A stretch of DNA of 62,818 nt from Treponema sp. (GTDB taxonomy: Bacteria; Spirochaetota; Spirochaetia; Treponematales; Treponemataceae): positions 1-62,818 of the forward strand of contig JAAYNH010000048.1 in NCBI GenBank assembly GCA_012520945.1, read 5' to 3'. Below, in pieces: positions 1,256-8,758 of this stretch. Every line of letters begins with the position of its first letter. Position 1 is the first letter of the stretch. The notes beneath the pieces were generated by a model that worked only from the letters and a program-made list of their open reading frames with translations, did no database searches and was not told the origin of the DNA. Both the position numbers and the translations under genes were made by a program.

Positions 1256-2134
1256 ATGCAGTTTTCAGAACTTAGAGACTTAATTAGGGATGAGTCGGGC
1301 AAAGGCGATTTCACAAGAGCTGGTGATTCAATACAAGAAGTAGTGTTTTCACTGGAAAAATCTACCTTAATCCCAATAATTACCGAAATTGGTGCTATAC
1401 CAGAAGATATTGGACATGATTCAAGTGAAGAGAAACTTTACGCTAAAGTTGCAGATATTGTATTAGCGAAGTGTTTCCAAGAACTAGGATTACAATCAAC
1501 CGTAAACCGTGAACGAGCAAATTGTGCAGATGTTGTAGCAAAGAGCCAAATCCATAGCTATACATTGGTTGGAGATGCAAAGGCTTTTAGATTAAGTCGT
1601 ACCGCTAAGAATCAAAAAGATTTTAAAGTTAAATCTATGGTTGATTGGCGTGGTGACAACGATTATGCCGTTCTTGTTTGTCCCTTTTATCAGTATCCAA
1701 AATCAAATAGTCAAATATATGGTCAAGCCTTGGATGGGAATGTGACCCTATTTTCTTGGGAGTATCTATCAGTTCTTTTGGAGAATAGCATTATTGAGTC
1801 ACCTGAGCTAAATCTCTCTGTTTTATGGAATGTAAGTAATGTACTGTCGGGTACAACTGCTGTTGCAGATAAAAATGATGCATTCTTACAGAAACAAAAC
1901 GAATTAATCAGAAGTCATCTGCATTTATCAGAAGAAATTTTCAATGCAAAATTTGCTGACTTCAAAACTAAAATCATTAATCGTGGAGAAATTGAAATCT
2001 CATATTGGAAAAGCCAAATAGAATTGATCAAAAACTATACACGAGAGCAAGCAATTAAAGAATTACTAACTTCTTTGAAACTGAATGAAAAAATTGCTTC
2101 AATAAAAAAATTTATTGATTCTTTGAGGGACTAA
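1256..2134 (+). CDS. HindIII-like type II restriction endonuclease
   Basis: The 292-residue protein is close in length to HindIII (300) and matches its characteristic run: ADAK-type motif GDAKAFRLSRTAKNQ (about 106-120), KDFKVK (121-126), then DYAVL, PF-QYP, SQI and NV-LFSWE. The D107-x-K109 and D122-x-K124 elements look like the metal-binding core of the PD-(D/E)XK-type nuclease fold. From the family it would cut A/AGCTT; this specificity is inferred. It has a good ribosome-binding site (TAGGAGA) and its stop codon directly abuts the methylase start. HindIII sites are frequent elsewhere in this window, so protection by the partner methylase would be needed if it is active. Confidence 0.88.
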   Translation: MQFSELRDLIRDESGKGDFTRAGDSIQEVVFSLEKSTLIPIITEIGAIPEDIGHDSSEEKLYAKVADIVLAKCFQELGLQSTVNRERANCADVVAKSQIHSYTLVGDAKAFRLSRTAKNQKDFKVKSMVDWRGDNDYAVLVCPFYQYPKSNSQIYGQALDGNVTLFSWEYLSVLLENSIIESPELNLSVLWNVSNVLSGTTAVADKNDAFLQKQNELIRSHLHLSEEIFNAKFADFKTKIINRGEIEISYWKSQIELIKNYTREQAIKELLTSLKLNEKIASIKKFIDSLRD

Positions 2135-3067
2135 ATGACAGTAAAAGAAGTATGTACTGTAAACAATATTATCAATGGAGACTCTATTGAACTAATAAAA
2201 AAAATGGATTCAGAATGTATTCATTTGATTCTTAGTGATATTCCTTATGGCATTGGTGTAGAGGATTGGGATGTATTGCATTCAAATACTAATACTGCTT
2301 ATTTAGGAACTAGCCCTGCTCAAGAAAAGGCAGGTGCAGTTTTTAAGAAGAGAGGAAAGCCATTAAACGGCTGGTCAGAAGCAGATCGCTTGATACCAAA
2401 ACAGTACTATGATTGGGTCTCAACATGGGCTTCTGAATGGTATCGCGTACTTAAACCAGGCGCGAGTGCCTTTGTTTTTGCTGGCAGACGGTTGGCCCAT
2501 CGTGCTATATGCGCATTTGAAGATGTTGGATTTACATATAAAGATATGATTGCTTGGGAAAAGGAAAGAGCCGCTCATAGGGCGCAAAGAATCAGCGTTG
2601 TCTTTGAACGCAGAGATGATACAGATTCAGCAAATAAGTGGATTGGATGGAAAGTAGGCAATCTGCGTCCAACATTTGAACCTATTCTTTGGTTCACAAA
2701 GCCTTATCGTATCGGCGGCACTATTGCAGATAATGTTTTACAGAACGGAGTTGGTGCATATAATGAAAGTATATTATCAAATTATCAACAAGAACCTAAC
2801 AATATATTAAGAGTTCAAGCGCAACGAAAAGATTCTGGATTGCACCCAACTCAAAAACCGCTTGCATTGATGGAATTATTAATTGAACTTACTACAACAA
2901 AAGATCAAGTTGTTTTTGATCCTTTTTGTGGAAGTGGAACGACTTTAGTTGCAGCGTTAAAACTGGGTAGGAAATATATCGGCATTGAAAAAGAACAGGT
3001 ATATTTTCAAGCTGCAAAAAAACGATTGGAAGAAGAAGCGAATTTACTAAAAAACACATTGTTTTAA
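2135..3067 (+). CDS. HindIII-like adenine-N6 DNA methyltransferase
   Basis: This 310-residue cognate methylase of the upstream nuclease starts immediately after the nuclease stop. The catalytic motif DIPYG (35-39, a DPPY variant) precedes the SAM-binding motif DPFCGSGTT (262-270), the beta-class order also found in M.HindIII. Between them lie conserved blocks such as RGKPLNGW, VLKPGASAFVFAGRRL and GNLRPTFEPILWF, which fit the M.HindIII family. HPTQKP (motif X region) sits before motif I. Expected product is N6-methyladenine in AAGCTT; specificity is inferred from the pairing. A long stem-loop follows the stop codon. Confidence 0.88.
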   Translation: MTVKEVCTVNNIINGDSIELIKKMDSECIHLILSDIPYGIGVEDWDVLHSNTNTAYLGTSPAQEKAGAVFKKRGKPLNGWSEADRLIPKQYYDWVSTWASEWYRVLKPGASAFVFAGRRLAHRAICAFEDVGFTYKDMIAWEKERAAHRAQRISVVFERRDDTDSANKWIGWKVGNLRPTFEPILWFTKPYRIGGTIADNVLQNGVGAYNESILSNYQQEPNNILRVQAQRKDSGLHPTQKPLALMELLIELTTTKDQVVFDPFCGSGTTLVAALKLGRKYIGIEKEQVYFQAAKKRLEEEANLLKNTLF

Positions 3068-4506: not shown

Positions 4507-5292
4507 TTAAATAAAGCCGAGTTTTTCTAAAATGATGGCTGCTGCAACAGTAGCGGCACTTTCAGTTCGTAGGATTCTATTTCCTATGGAACAACTGATA
4601 AAACCAGCATTTTTCAAAAGATTGCGTTCGTTATTTGTCCAGCCACGTTCACTGCCAATTGCGGCATAAACACATTTTTTAGTATTCTTTGAAACGTCTT
4701 TAACACAATGCAAATGTTCATCATTTATAATATGATTCATAAATTGACCTAAGCTGTGTTTTGGTGCAACATTATCTAATGTGGCTTTTGCACAATTTTC
4801 AAAAAATTCATCATGAATATGCAAAAAATGCAAACATTGTGAAACATCTGTGTGCAAAAACAGTTTTGGAATATGTGTGCTTTTTGCCTGGACACTGCCT
4901 TCGATTAAAAGATTTTCCGCCGTGCCTTTTTCAACTATATTTGATTGCAGATATGATTTTTCGGTTAATTCTGTTCCTGTTAAATGAATTTCGCAAATAC
5001 CAAGTCCTGCCATGTCACGAAAAAGGCGTTTGAGTTGAATTGGACGCGGAAAGCCGACAATCATTTTCAAACTATTTAGCGGAATGCCATCATTTTCAGG
5101 AATAAAGTCAAAATAAATAGCTACGTCGTCAATTTTTGAGATATGTGCTTTTCCTGCATTGCCTCCAATAATTCCGGCTTCAAAACTGTCCCCTTCTTTT
5201 TTGTGCAAAATTTCCAAAATATGTTTTGCTCTTGAATCTTTATTTGAAAGGGGTAAATTTATTTCTTCAGGAGCGAATAGTGCAATATTCAT
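4507..5292 (-). CDS. rsmE: 16S rRNA m3U1498 methyltransferase RsmE
   Basis: The 261-residue protein has the RsmE layout: an N-terminal PUA-like barrel (HILEILHKKEGDSFEAG, about 24-40) and a C-terminal SPOUT methylase domain. It should methylate U1498 of 16S rRNA with SAM. The knotted SAM site is recognisable as IGSERGW (212-218) and RILRTESA (239 onward). The usual form is IGPEGGW, so proline and a glycine are replaced here, which is unusual but leaves the rest intact. The start has no ribosome-binding site; TATATT (5300-5305) lies 7 nt before the ATG, again suggesting a leaderless message. Confidence 0.88.
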   Translation of the reverse strand: MNIALFAPEEINLPLSNKDSRAKHILEILHKKEGDSFEAGIIGGNAGKAHISKIDDVAIYFDFIPENDGIPLNSLKMIVGFPRPIQLKRLFRDMAGLGICEIHLTGTELTEKSYLQSNIVEKGTAENLLIEGSVQAKSTHIPKLFLHTDVSQCLHFLHIHDEFFENCAKATLDNVAPKHSLGQFMNHIINDEHLHCVKDVSKNTKKCVYAAIGSERGWTNNERNLLKNAGFISCSIGNRILRTESAATVAAAIILEKLGFI

Positions 5293-5338: not shown

Positions 5339-5366
5339 TTGATATATTTATACTCTGTGCTAAAAT
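5339..5366 (+). promoter_or_regulatory. Promoter of the M30-type lipoprotein protease
   Basis: TTGATA (5339-5344), a 16-bp spacer and TAAAAT (5361-5366). The ATG of the signal peptide follows after 7 nt, with no ribosome-binding site. This supports 5374 as the true start even though it is out of frame with the body of the gene. Confidence 0.55.
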
Positions 5367-5373
5367 ATTTACT

Positions 5374-7604
5374 ATGAAGAGATTTTTTTTTTACTTGTTA
5401 TTATTTTCATTGCTATTTTTACAATAACCGGATGCGAATTTTTAATAAATGCTATACCAAAAATTCCGGAAGATTTGTCTATTATAAAAGATGAAACCAC
5501 AGCAAATAAAGCAAAACTTTCATGGAAAGGTGGTGAAACTGAAGAATTTTATGTATTTTTTAATACAGAAAATAATCCTAATACAGCTGTTCTTGTAAAA
5601 ATTGTTCAAACAACATATACTGATGTCGAATTATATTCGGGAAACTATAATTATTTTTGGGTTCGCTCTGCAACTTTTTTGGGAGCTTCAGATTTTTCTG
5701 AAGGAGTATATTTATATGAAGAACCGGGAGCTGTTCAAAATTTAAAGGTAAGTTATGTTGAAGACGAATGGGCGTCTTTTATTTGGACTGCACAAAATGG
5801 AAAAAATGCACAAATAAAATATGAAATAGAATGTATAAATGATTCGGATGATTCTGTTGTGCTTTCAGAAACAATTTTGCAAAGTAATCTTTTAATAGAA
5901 GATTTAAATGCAAATACAAATTACACTTTATCAATAAAAACAATTTATGGTACAACTTATGTTGGAGAGGTAAATGAAAAAATAAAAACTCTGCTTAAAA
6001 AAACAGATCCCACTATAGTTGAAATTTCACCGCAAGAAATTCCGCAACAAAAAAATTATACAGTTTGTGTTCCTGGAAATTATATTGCATATATTGTAAA
6101 TATAAATCCGAACGATAATCCTCTCCCTGGAGTTTTAAGTCAAAACATTCGTACAGATAAAAAAATACGAAAACCTGCTATGGTTCCTTCACTAAAAGAA
6201 GAAAGTTTTAAAAATGAGGAAGGGCTTTCAACTATATTTTCAAACGGAGTTGAACGCTATGAAATGCAAATGCCTGTTTTTGAAAGGCCTTTCTCTTTGA
6301 CGCGTACATTAAAAACACCAACATTTACTCCTTTTAAAGAAGGAGATACAAAAATTTTTAATTGTGACGGTAGTGGCACAAGTGAAGCAAATTGGGTTGA
6401 CAGAAAAGTTCCTGCAACAATGCGTTATAAAGGTGAACATTGTTATGTTTGGGTTGCGAATGATAATTATAATGAAGATAATACTCGTTCTGTTGTGAAT
6501 AATAATAAAGTTAAGCAGTTTCAAGTAGAAATTTTTGGAAAGGCATTTGATAATATTTATCCGCACATGATTAATATGTTTGGCAAAAAATATTCCGTAC
6601 AAAAGACAGGCAAAATTGCACCAAATGATAAAATATCAATCTTTTTATATGATATTATGGAAGATTTTAGTGAAAATCAAATGGGTGGTGTGCTAGGATA
6701 TTTTTGGGGTGCGGATATGAATCATGATTATGCAATTGCTAATGAATTGGAATTAATAAATATTGATGTTCATTTTGTAAATATTTATCCTGAGTTGGCA
6801 GCATCAACTTTAGCACACGAGTTTCAGCATATGTTACGTTATGTGAATAAAGATTTTTTAAACCCCGGTGATGAAACATGGGTTCAAGAAATGATGTCCA
6901 TGTTGTGTGAAGATATTTTGCAAGATAAAATAACTTTGGAGAATTATGAACCTGGTAAAGAACGTGTTTTTATTGGGGACAGTGAATCTCCAAAAGGACG
7001 TCTTTATCAATTTTTATGCACATATTATGACGGCGGATTGTTTTTTTGGGAAAATAAAACTATGTCATATTCGCGAACGTATGCTTTTGGAGCTTGGCTT
7101 GTTAGAAATTACGGAGGTGTAAAGTTGCTTAAAGAAATGGCAACAAATTCACAAATTGGTCTTAACTGTGTAATTTCCGCATTGCAGAGTTGTGGTGTAA
7201 ATAAGCCTGTTGAAAAATTATTGGAAGAATATGTGGTGTCTTTACTGTACAATGTTTTACCTGCGGACAAAGCAGAATCATATAAATTAACTACTTTATA
7301 TAAAGACTCTCCAAGTGAAACTATTGCCGGGCAAACTTATGCTTTTAAAGCCATAGATATGTCAAGATATTATTATTATAATAATAACGGTGCACAGTTT
7401 GGGCTTTTTGCATTTCCTGCAGAGAAGGATCCGGCTGAATATATGCCAAGTATCAATGATGTAAAATATTTTTGTGCCGGTGGTTTTACTGTTCAAAAAC
7501 TGTATGATAATACAAATTCCGCAGCGGAAAAATATCTTGATTTTGAATTTACGGATTTAGCAGAATCAACTTGTGGTGTAAAAACCTTTATAATTATGCG
7601 ATAA
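5374..7604 (+). CDS. M30 (hyicolysin)-like lipoprotein protease, frameshifted at a poly-T tract
   Basis: The main frame (open through 5475-7604) encodes about 709 residues after the lipobox. The N-terminal region holds fibronectin-III-like beta repeats (WTAQNGKNAQIKYEIE; LNANTNYTLSIKT). HEFQH (about residue 448 counting from 5475) followed by DETWVQEMMSMLCED fits the HExxH...E zinc site of M30 peptidases. The start at 5374 reads MKRFFF and then enters a T10 run. In the genomic frame it stops after 17 codons; with one extra T (or two fewer) it becomes a perfect lipoprotein signal peptide ending TITGC and continues into the protease. Expression therefore needs slippage or a length change, unless the run is a sequencing error. 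Confidence 0.72.
5383..5392 (+). repeat. T10 homopolymer inside a signal-peptide coding sequence
   Basis: Ten consecutive T residues (5383-5392) lie four codons into the protease gene. Register analysis: 10 T gives a 17-codon stop; 11 T or 8 T restores the signal peptide with a lipobox cysteine at 5433-5435. Such tracts are hot spots for replication or polymerase slippage and for sequencing error. Confidence 0.8.
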
Positions 7605-7621
7605 CATGCTATACTGAGTTT

Positions 7622-8758
7622 ATGACAAATTCATTTTCTCAAGATTTAGGTAAAAGTGCCGGAATTGTGGCACGGGAAGTTTGTGGAATAAAGAAAGGCG
7701 AGCGAGTTTTAATCGTTTCAAATCCTCTCAAAGAAACAGAAGCCATAGCTCAAAGTTTGTTCAAAGCTGTAGGTGAATGTGGTGGCGTACCTATAATTGT
7801 GTTTCAGCAGGAAAAAACATTGCTTGATTATGCTGACCCAATTGTAATTGCGGCTTTGAAAAGTAATCCCGATGTTTTTTTATCTATAAGTGCAAATAAG
7901 CTGGGTAAAGATGAAGAAGCTATGAAAAAGCCTTATATTGCAGACGATGGAAAAACGTATAATCACATTTTTGACTATTTGCTTTATGGTGCTAAAGAAA
8001 TGCGCGCCGTGTGGACACCAGGGATTACTCAAGATATGTTTTCACGAACGGTAAAAATTGATTATGATTTGCTTTCTAAACGATGTACCGCTTTAATGAA
8101 AGTTTTGCACGGTGCTGATTATGTACATGTTACAGCACCGGCTGGCACCGACGTTAAAGTTATCATAAAAGGCAGAAAACCCTTTGCTGACGACGGGAAT
8201 TTTACAGAGGCCGGTTCCGGTGGTAATATTCCTGCCGGCGAAGTTTTTATTAGCCCTGTGGTAGGCGGAACAGAAGGGAAAATTGTTTTTGACGGCTCCA
8301 TGAGTTTAAATTCTGAAGATATATTAATTCAAGAACCAATTATTGTAGATGTTGTTGACGGATATGTTACAAATATTGTTAGTTCTTCAAAAAAACCGGC
8401 AACTTTTTCTTCAAATGATGCGGGAAAGCTTTTGGACACAATTACGGCAGCGGAGGAAAAAGCTTTGCAAATGGAAGCTGAAGGTAAGTTGCCTAAAGGC
8501 ATGGGAGAGGTTTACAAAAAAAATGCTCGTCACATTGGTGAGTTGGGTATAGGATTGAACCCTGCCGCACAAGTAAAAGGTAATATGCTTGAAGATGAAA
8601 AAGCTTTCCGCACATGTCATTTTGCAATTGGGTCAAATTATGATGGAGATGCTGATACATTAATTCATTTAGATGGCGTTGTGTTAAATCCAACAATTAC
8701 TGTATATTATGCTGACGGTCGTAATGTAGTTATTGAAAAAAACGGTATTTTGCAATAG
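7622..8758 (+). CDS. M29-family aminopeptidase (AmpS/aminopeptidase T type)
   Basis: The protein has about 379 residues from the ATG at 7622. It matches thermophilic aminopeptidase (peptidase family M29) in length and layout: an N-terminal Rossmann-like half (KKGERVLIVSNP) and a C-terminal metal-binding half with EAGSGGNIPAGEVFISP, AAEEKALQMEAEGK, GELGIGLNP and a final FAIGSNYDGDADTLIHLDG. These carry the Glu/His/Asp ligands of the two-metal site. The enzyme releases N-terminal residues from peptides in the cytoplasm. TATACT (7610-7615) ends 6 nt before the ATG and there is no ribosome-binding site; the frame is open further upstream but lies inside the previous gene. Confidence 0.85.
   Translation: MTNSFSQDLGKSAGIVAREVCGIKKGERVLIVSNPLKETEAIAQSLFKAVGECGGVPIIVFQQEKTLLDYADPIVIAALKSNPDVFLSISANKLGKDEEAMKKPYIADDGKTYNHIFDYLLYGAKEMRAVWTPGITQDMFSRTVKIDYDLLSKRCTALMKVLHGADYVHVTAPAGTDVKVIIKGRKPFADDGNFTEAGSGGNIPAGEVFISPVVGGTEGKIVFDGSMSLNSEDILIQEPIIVDVVDGYVTNIVSSSKKPATFSSNDAGKLLDTITAAEEKALQMEAEGKLPKGMGEVYKKNARHIGELGIGLNPAAQVKGNMLEDEKAFRTCHFAIGSNYDGDADTLIHLDGVVLNPTITVYYADGRNVVIEKNGILQ

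Follow-up and report, generated by a model that had tools for sequence, protein, structure and literature searches.

Frameshift switches in 5' poly(T) or poly(A) runs have been described for the flhA poly(T) tract of Campylobacter coli, swrA of Bacillus subtilis and inlA of Listeria monocytogenes (PMC2831843). Genes with transcriptional slippage form another group, namely Shigella flexneri mxiE, with a U run in its mRNA, and Citrobacter rodentium tssM1, with an A11 run (PMC4256274, PMC1088944). According to published work, bacterial RNA polymerase that slips on A/T runs mostly inserts a single base, and such insertions become more frequent as the run gets longer (PMC5574713). The slippage reported for the Escherichia coli enzyme is 5% on T7 and 10% on T8, with T-runs preferred (PMC6260861), and values of about 20% for A11 in tssM and 15–55% for natural sites are given elsewhere (PMC4256274). 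For Treponema pallidum, poly-G phase variation has been reported for the tpr genes and tp0126, where promoter tracts change transcription (PMC7864442). The locus described below is located in a stretch of 62,818 nucleotides, the whole of which was analysed and is called the window here; it belongs to a 2.19 Mb draft genome, the sole genome of its genus in our comparison.

The T10 tract and the protease gene

The first-pass annotation of this DNA stated that a run of ten T disrupts the frame after 17 codons and that 11 T (or 8 T) would join a lipoprotein signal (TITGC) to a complete HEFQH protease; direct reading confirmed this observation in every detail checked. The start codon ATG is located at 5374–5376 on the forward strand, and the T10 homopolymer, the junction between both frames, at 5383–5392. 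The short frame (5374–5427) encodes MKRFFFYLLLFSLLFLQ in 17 codons, ends with the stop codon TAA at 5425–5427 and is the product of the assembled sequence. The long open frame extends from stop to stop over positions 5364–7604 (746 codons and a stop), each of its codons begins at a multiple of 3, and it contains ...FLLVIIFIAIFTITGCEFL.... A hydrophobic stretch followed by the lipobox T-I-T-G-C was read by eye at 5391–5435, with the Cys codon at 5433–5435. The lipoprotein signal is split by frame: the charged start belongs to the short frame, the hydrophobic core and the lipobox Cys belong to the long one, and no single frame of the assembled sequence contains all three. The earliest ATG, GTG or TTG of the long frame is TTG 5475, and its earliest ATG is codon 273. 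Between the preceding stop and the tract this frame has just ATT/ATA-type codons, so that no ordinary alternative start links the signal to the protein. TTG 5475 was rejected as the start, because it sits behind the lipobox and its product would be devoid of a signal. The locus has the layout of a contingency locus, namely a homopolymer inside an ORF in which the number of repeated bases determines the reading frame, and also that of a transcriptional-slippage site, with an A/T run of at least 9 and a long product that requires one added base.

A promoter had also been proposed before the start codon. A promoter-like site, TTGATA-16-TAAAAT, in which TG precedes the second hexamer, was found at 5339–5366 on the forward strand; it matches the consensus at 10 of 12 positions and ends 7 bases 5' of the ATG, but the scan as a whole was not clearly above shuffles (18 versus 12.8, sd 4.2). 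The starts of 92 homologs were analysed together with this gene (93 starts), and homologs without a fitting ATG-started signal or with too little upstream DNA were dropped. A -10-like hexamer 4–9 bases before the ATG was found in 19 of the 92 homologs and, when this gene is counted, in 20 of 93 starts, versus 6.9 in shuffles. SD-like motifs occur in 50 of the 93 starts, and none of the 20 starts with a -10-like hexamer is among them. Since the promoter-like site ends so close to the ATG and homologs without an SD motif have the same layout, the mRNA is probably leaderless or nearly so, which would place T10 at about +10 to +19. Many treponemes have protease-lipoprotein genes that look leaderless (a -10 box and no SD), whereas others have an SD-like motif; the former include L003, L008, L010, L019, L116, L119, L120, L121 and others.

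The protein of the long open frame was designated P0001. The chance of a 709-codon open frame at the same base composition is about 5e-28, and the remaining two sense frames contain 42 and 84 stops. P0001 retains 45 of the 48 columns conserved in 23 other aligned sequences, which is within the range of those sequences themselves (37 to 45 columns retained out of 45 to 48). Judged by its sequence, the long frame appears intact, without sign of decay. It contains a fibronectin type III (fn3) domain at 5730–5954 (PF00041, E 1.5e-7) and the HEFQH zinc-binding motif of an M30-like peptidase domain at 6816–6830, both on the forward strand. Residues H448, E449, H452 and E472 are invariant in the alignments of 24 and of 48 sequences, and E472 may be the third zinc ligand.

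The designation of the protease as M30-type was retained in part. P0001 has the HEXXH motif of peptidase family M30, and 12 of its 24 aligned relatives match the Pfam model Peptidase_M30 (PF10460; best E 1.9e-22), but P0001 itself has no match to it at E ≤ 0.01. The AlphaFold model of P0001 has a mean pLDDT of 71.7, with mostly 85–97 in the peptidase part and a poor N-terminal part. A Foldseek search with this model revealed a match to the M30 peptidase lugdulysin (7bb8/7bb9; E 5.8e-16 and 5.1e-15; TM by target 0.68). The likeness to lugdulysin covers the HEXXH zinc peptidase fold across the catalytic half; however, the identity is 17%, P0001 has an N-terminal fn3 domain and a lipoprotein signal, and its own sequence is below the Pfam M30 model. 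The NCBIfam search with P0001 gave a sub-threshold match only, and the PDB search by its sequence gave nothing convincing. All these characteristics suggest an M30-like fn3 metallopeptidase.

Neighbouring genes and the state of the orthologs

The protease gene is located between a divergent gene of an RsmE-like RNA methyltransferase (4507–5292, reverse strand; PF04452, E 2.6e-24) and a downstream gene of an M29-type aminopeptidase (7571–8758, forward strand; PF02073, E 5.7e-11), and these neighbours mark the orthologous position. Elsewhere in the window, at 1256–3067, a HindIII-type restriction endonuclease (PF09518, E 3.2e-65) adjoins an N6/N4 DNA methylase (PF01555); AAGCTT occurs 20 times in the window versus 32.1 (sd 6.2) in shuffles.

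Homologs that share one neighbour were taken as positional orthologs, namely L003, L007, L031, L125 and L126 on the rsmE side and L005, L019, L112, L113 and L114 on the M29 side; L008 was left out owing to its weak M29 match (E 2e-9). L031 and L005 are tandem protease genes of one genome (G012, contig 7), located between RsmE-like and M29 genes. All 10 positional orthologs begin with an in-frame lipoprotein signal, and their longest T-run is 7, so that a run of more than 7 T occurs in none of the 10. The wider set of homologs comprised 129 loci, which collapsed to 111 distinct ones. The lipoprotein pattern fits 96 of the 111, 7 run off their contig and 8 do not fit. Among the latter, L004, L013 and L030 are broken or lack a signal, L016 is undecided, and L195, L242, L244 and L249 resemble lipoproteins by eye. 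The distant homolog L215 contains a T9 run, in frame and very close to the position that T10 occupies here. From these comparisons, the gene start and the lipoprotein signal are judged to be ancestral. Since the orthologs are in frame and the homolog loci mostly fit the lipoprotein pattern, the frame break at T10 is specific to this lineage.

The homologs of Brucepastera parasyntrophica (L013/L202) and Treponema sp. CETP13 (L030) gave matches in two frames, and the other protease copy of the Treponema sp. CETP13 MAG (L004) has no signal. The protease family seems prone to breakage, and the two broken homologs indicate that it tolerates loss. The named relatives that bear homologs are mostly Treponema MAGs. 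No close relative of this genome was found in the genome contigs searched, and P0001 alone as the query gave no match there.

Origin of the frame break

The window contains one T10 position, the sole T10/A10 run in it, versus 16.0 (sd 4.8) in dinucleotide shuffles; the tract is thus not a by-product of AT-richness. A/T runs of 6, 7, 8, 9 and at least 10 bases number 175, 95, 51, 6 and 1 in the window, versus 188, 78.5, 31.9, 12.7 and 8.7 in an order-5 simulation. Runs of 6–8 are near or above expectation, and from 9 bases upward there are fewer than expected; T10 is thus longer than this genome tolerates. Across the window (1–62818), runs of 8 are over-represented and those of at least 9 sharply depleted; this cut-off suggests selection against slippage. 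Genome-wide, on both strands, 57 T10 positions were found, which correspond to 44 separate runs. None of the other 43 is coding in the tally of ATG starts, and 4 of them (L033, L035, L051, L071) lie in a sense ORF of at least 80 codons when GTG and TTG starts are allowed. MutS1 and MutL were found above the cut-off, i.e., the mismatch repair genes are intact; loss of mismatch repair was therefore rejected as the cause of T10, and heritable switching of the tract should be slow.

These data allow us to propose, at a probability that we put just short of even, that T10 is genuine and represents an allele produced by slippage in the 5' homopolymer of a leaderless fn3-M30 lipoprotein gene; this allele would be mostly off, leaky and potentially reversible. 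Replication slippage would have lengthened the homopolymer past the usually tolerated length, and most mRNAs of the resulting allele would yield the 17-residue peptide. In a minority of mRNAs, a U added by RNA polymerase on T10 would restore the lipoprotein frame, so that the gene would be leaky. Further replication slippage could restore the frame in the DNA, and the locus would then switch on and off at a low frequency, irrespective of any selection for such a switch. In this chain we infer the leaderless start, the RNA-polymerase slippage, the reversibility and the surface location of the protease. The suggestion of the first-pass annotation that a run of this length is open to transcriptional slippage agrees with the slippage of the E. 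coli polymerase already on T7 and T8 (PMC6260861), and the long frame can be reached by a single added base, the commonest slip in the published account (PMC5574713). Since one added base suffices and slippage on A/T runs occurs at the published rates, T10 would probably be a leaky allele and not a null one. A signal beginning with MK-R-F-F gains T readily through composition alone, and this counts against the reading of T10 as a slippage allele.

T10 may be subject to reversible phase variation. Against a dedicated switch stand the absence of the tract from 10 of 10 positional orthologs, the absence of another clear out-of-frame tract gene from the part of the genome surveyed, the presence of MutS1 and MutL, and the absence from the genome of runs of 8 G or C, as in poly-G contingency loci. 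A second out-of-frame tract gene would be expected in a genome that uses such switches.

The main alternative, which we consider unlikely but by no means negligible, is an artefact of the reads or the assembly, with a wrongly called number of T in a gene that in reality has no frame break. The assembly is a draft of 119 contigs with 95% completeness, and a single miscount would be expected to look just like this, with one gene broken where the longest coding T-run lies. In addition, according to the GeneTack survey, one class among the singleton genes with frameshifts should come from sequencing errors and not from genuine indels (PMC3711429). Homopolymers were surveyed in about 337 kb (about 15% of the genome), comprising the window and tract-centred stretches, with ATG-started ORFs of at least 100 codons. 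Intact ORFs contain 334 A/T runs of at least 8 bases (A8, 186; A9, 37; A10 or longer, 12; T8, 86; T9, 13), which shows that homopolymer calls are mostly right, but this evidence concerns runs other than T10, as no intact coding T10 occurs in the 337 kb.

A scan of the same 337 kb for breaks, which is blind to mid-gene breaks with an in-frame ATG within 90 bases, gave three candidates, and the protease gene is the only clear frame break among them. L163 was rejected because it lies within one open frame. L056 (A8) was also rejected as a broken gene; it is an exported-protein ORF (about 1536 to the end) with a nearby ATG out of frame, and it probably starts at TTG. Among ATGAA..T8-type sites, 26 of 78 open into frames of at least 60 codons. 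At four weak sites besides the protease gene (L107, L142, L165, L168) another frame of 85–109 codons is present near the run, and a stricter scan flagged none of them. Thus, the tract-centred sequence surveyed, about 337 kb out of 2.19 Mb, yielded no other clear case of a gene put out of frame by a homopolymer. With 334 intact runs and a single clear break, general trouble with homopolymers is unlikely, but T10 by itself may have been miscounted.

A fixed recent loss, in which a slippage frameshift is not reversed and decay is to follow, is considered rather improbable. The lineage-specific T10, the homologs broken elsewhere (L013/L202 and L030, with L004 lacking a signal) and the failure to find a second protease copy in this genome are consistent with it, but 709 codons without another lesion and the retained conserved residues count against it. 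Homopolymer slippage is also inherently reversible, which argues against a permanent loss. We regard as more doubtful still an elaboration of the slippage allele into a two-level switch, in which heritable tract length would set on and off and RNA-polymerase slippage in the first 20 transcribed bases would maintain lipidated protease at a fixed fraction in off cells. If true, there would be some enzyme in every cell and much in a few, and a poly-T signal-peptide switch would exist in a lineage whose reported precedent is poly-G tracts (PMC7864442). A programmed -1 ribosomal frameshift at U UUU UUU (5385–5391), which would yield the protein from the assembled sequence, is very improbable: the heptamer is present in the right register, but no stimulatory structure was found downstream beyond chance (z +0.34 to +0.90), an upstream SD-like stimulator has no room if the mRNA is leaderless, and T-runs longer than 7 are absent from the positional orthologs.

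Comparison with the described systems

If the slippage allele is real, a treponeme-like bacterium would join the organisms in which a T-run may act as a switch for surface-type lipoproteins, and gene finders would report the protease as a pseudogene or as a truncated gene that starts at TTG 5475 and lacks the signal. If the run was miscounted, the locus calls for caution in inferring frameshifts from draft assemblies. Whatever the outcome for T10, annotation benefits from the assignment as an M30 lipoprotein and from the probable leaderless start of some family members.

The poly-G systems of T. pallidum, as reported (PMC7864442), are similar in that a homopolymer is associated with an envelope protein in a treponeme; however, the tracts there are poly-G in promoters, whereas here the tract is poly-T at the start of the coding region, in a genome with no G8. 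Like the accounts of mxiE and tssM1 (PMC4256274, PMC1088944), the protease gene has a long A/T run at the frame junction, and the register with an added base gives the long product. In those genes the slippage was measured and the long product is needed, whereas the treponeme T10 is known from DNA and is absent from the orthologs. The layout also resembles that of flhA, swrA and inlA as described (PMC2831843), with an A/T run right after the start codon, a one-base slip that leads to a short peptide, and reversibility in principle; the treponeme gene differs in being a probably leaderless gene for a lipoprotein protease and in being known from one assembled tract length. Since both 5' T- or A-run switches and rescue by slippage have reported precedents (PMC2831843, PMC4256274), the T10 protease gene can be considered a new candidate of a known kind.
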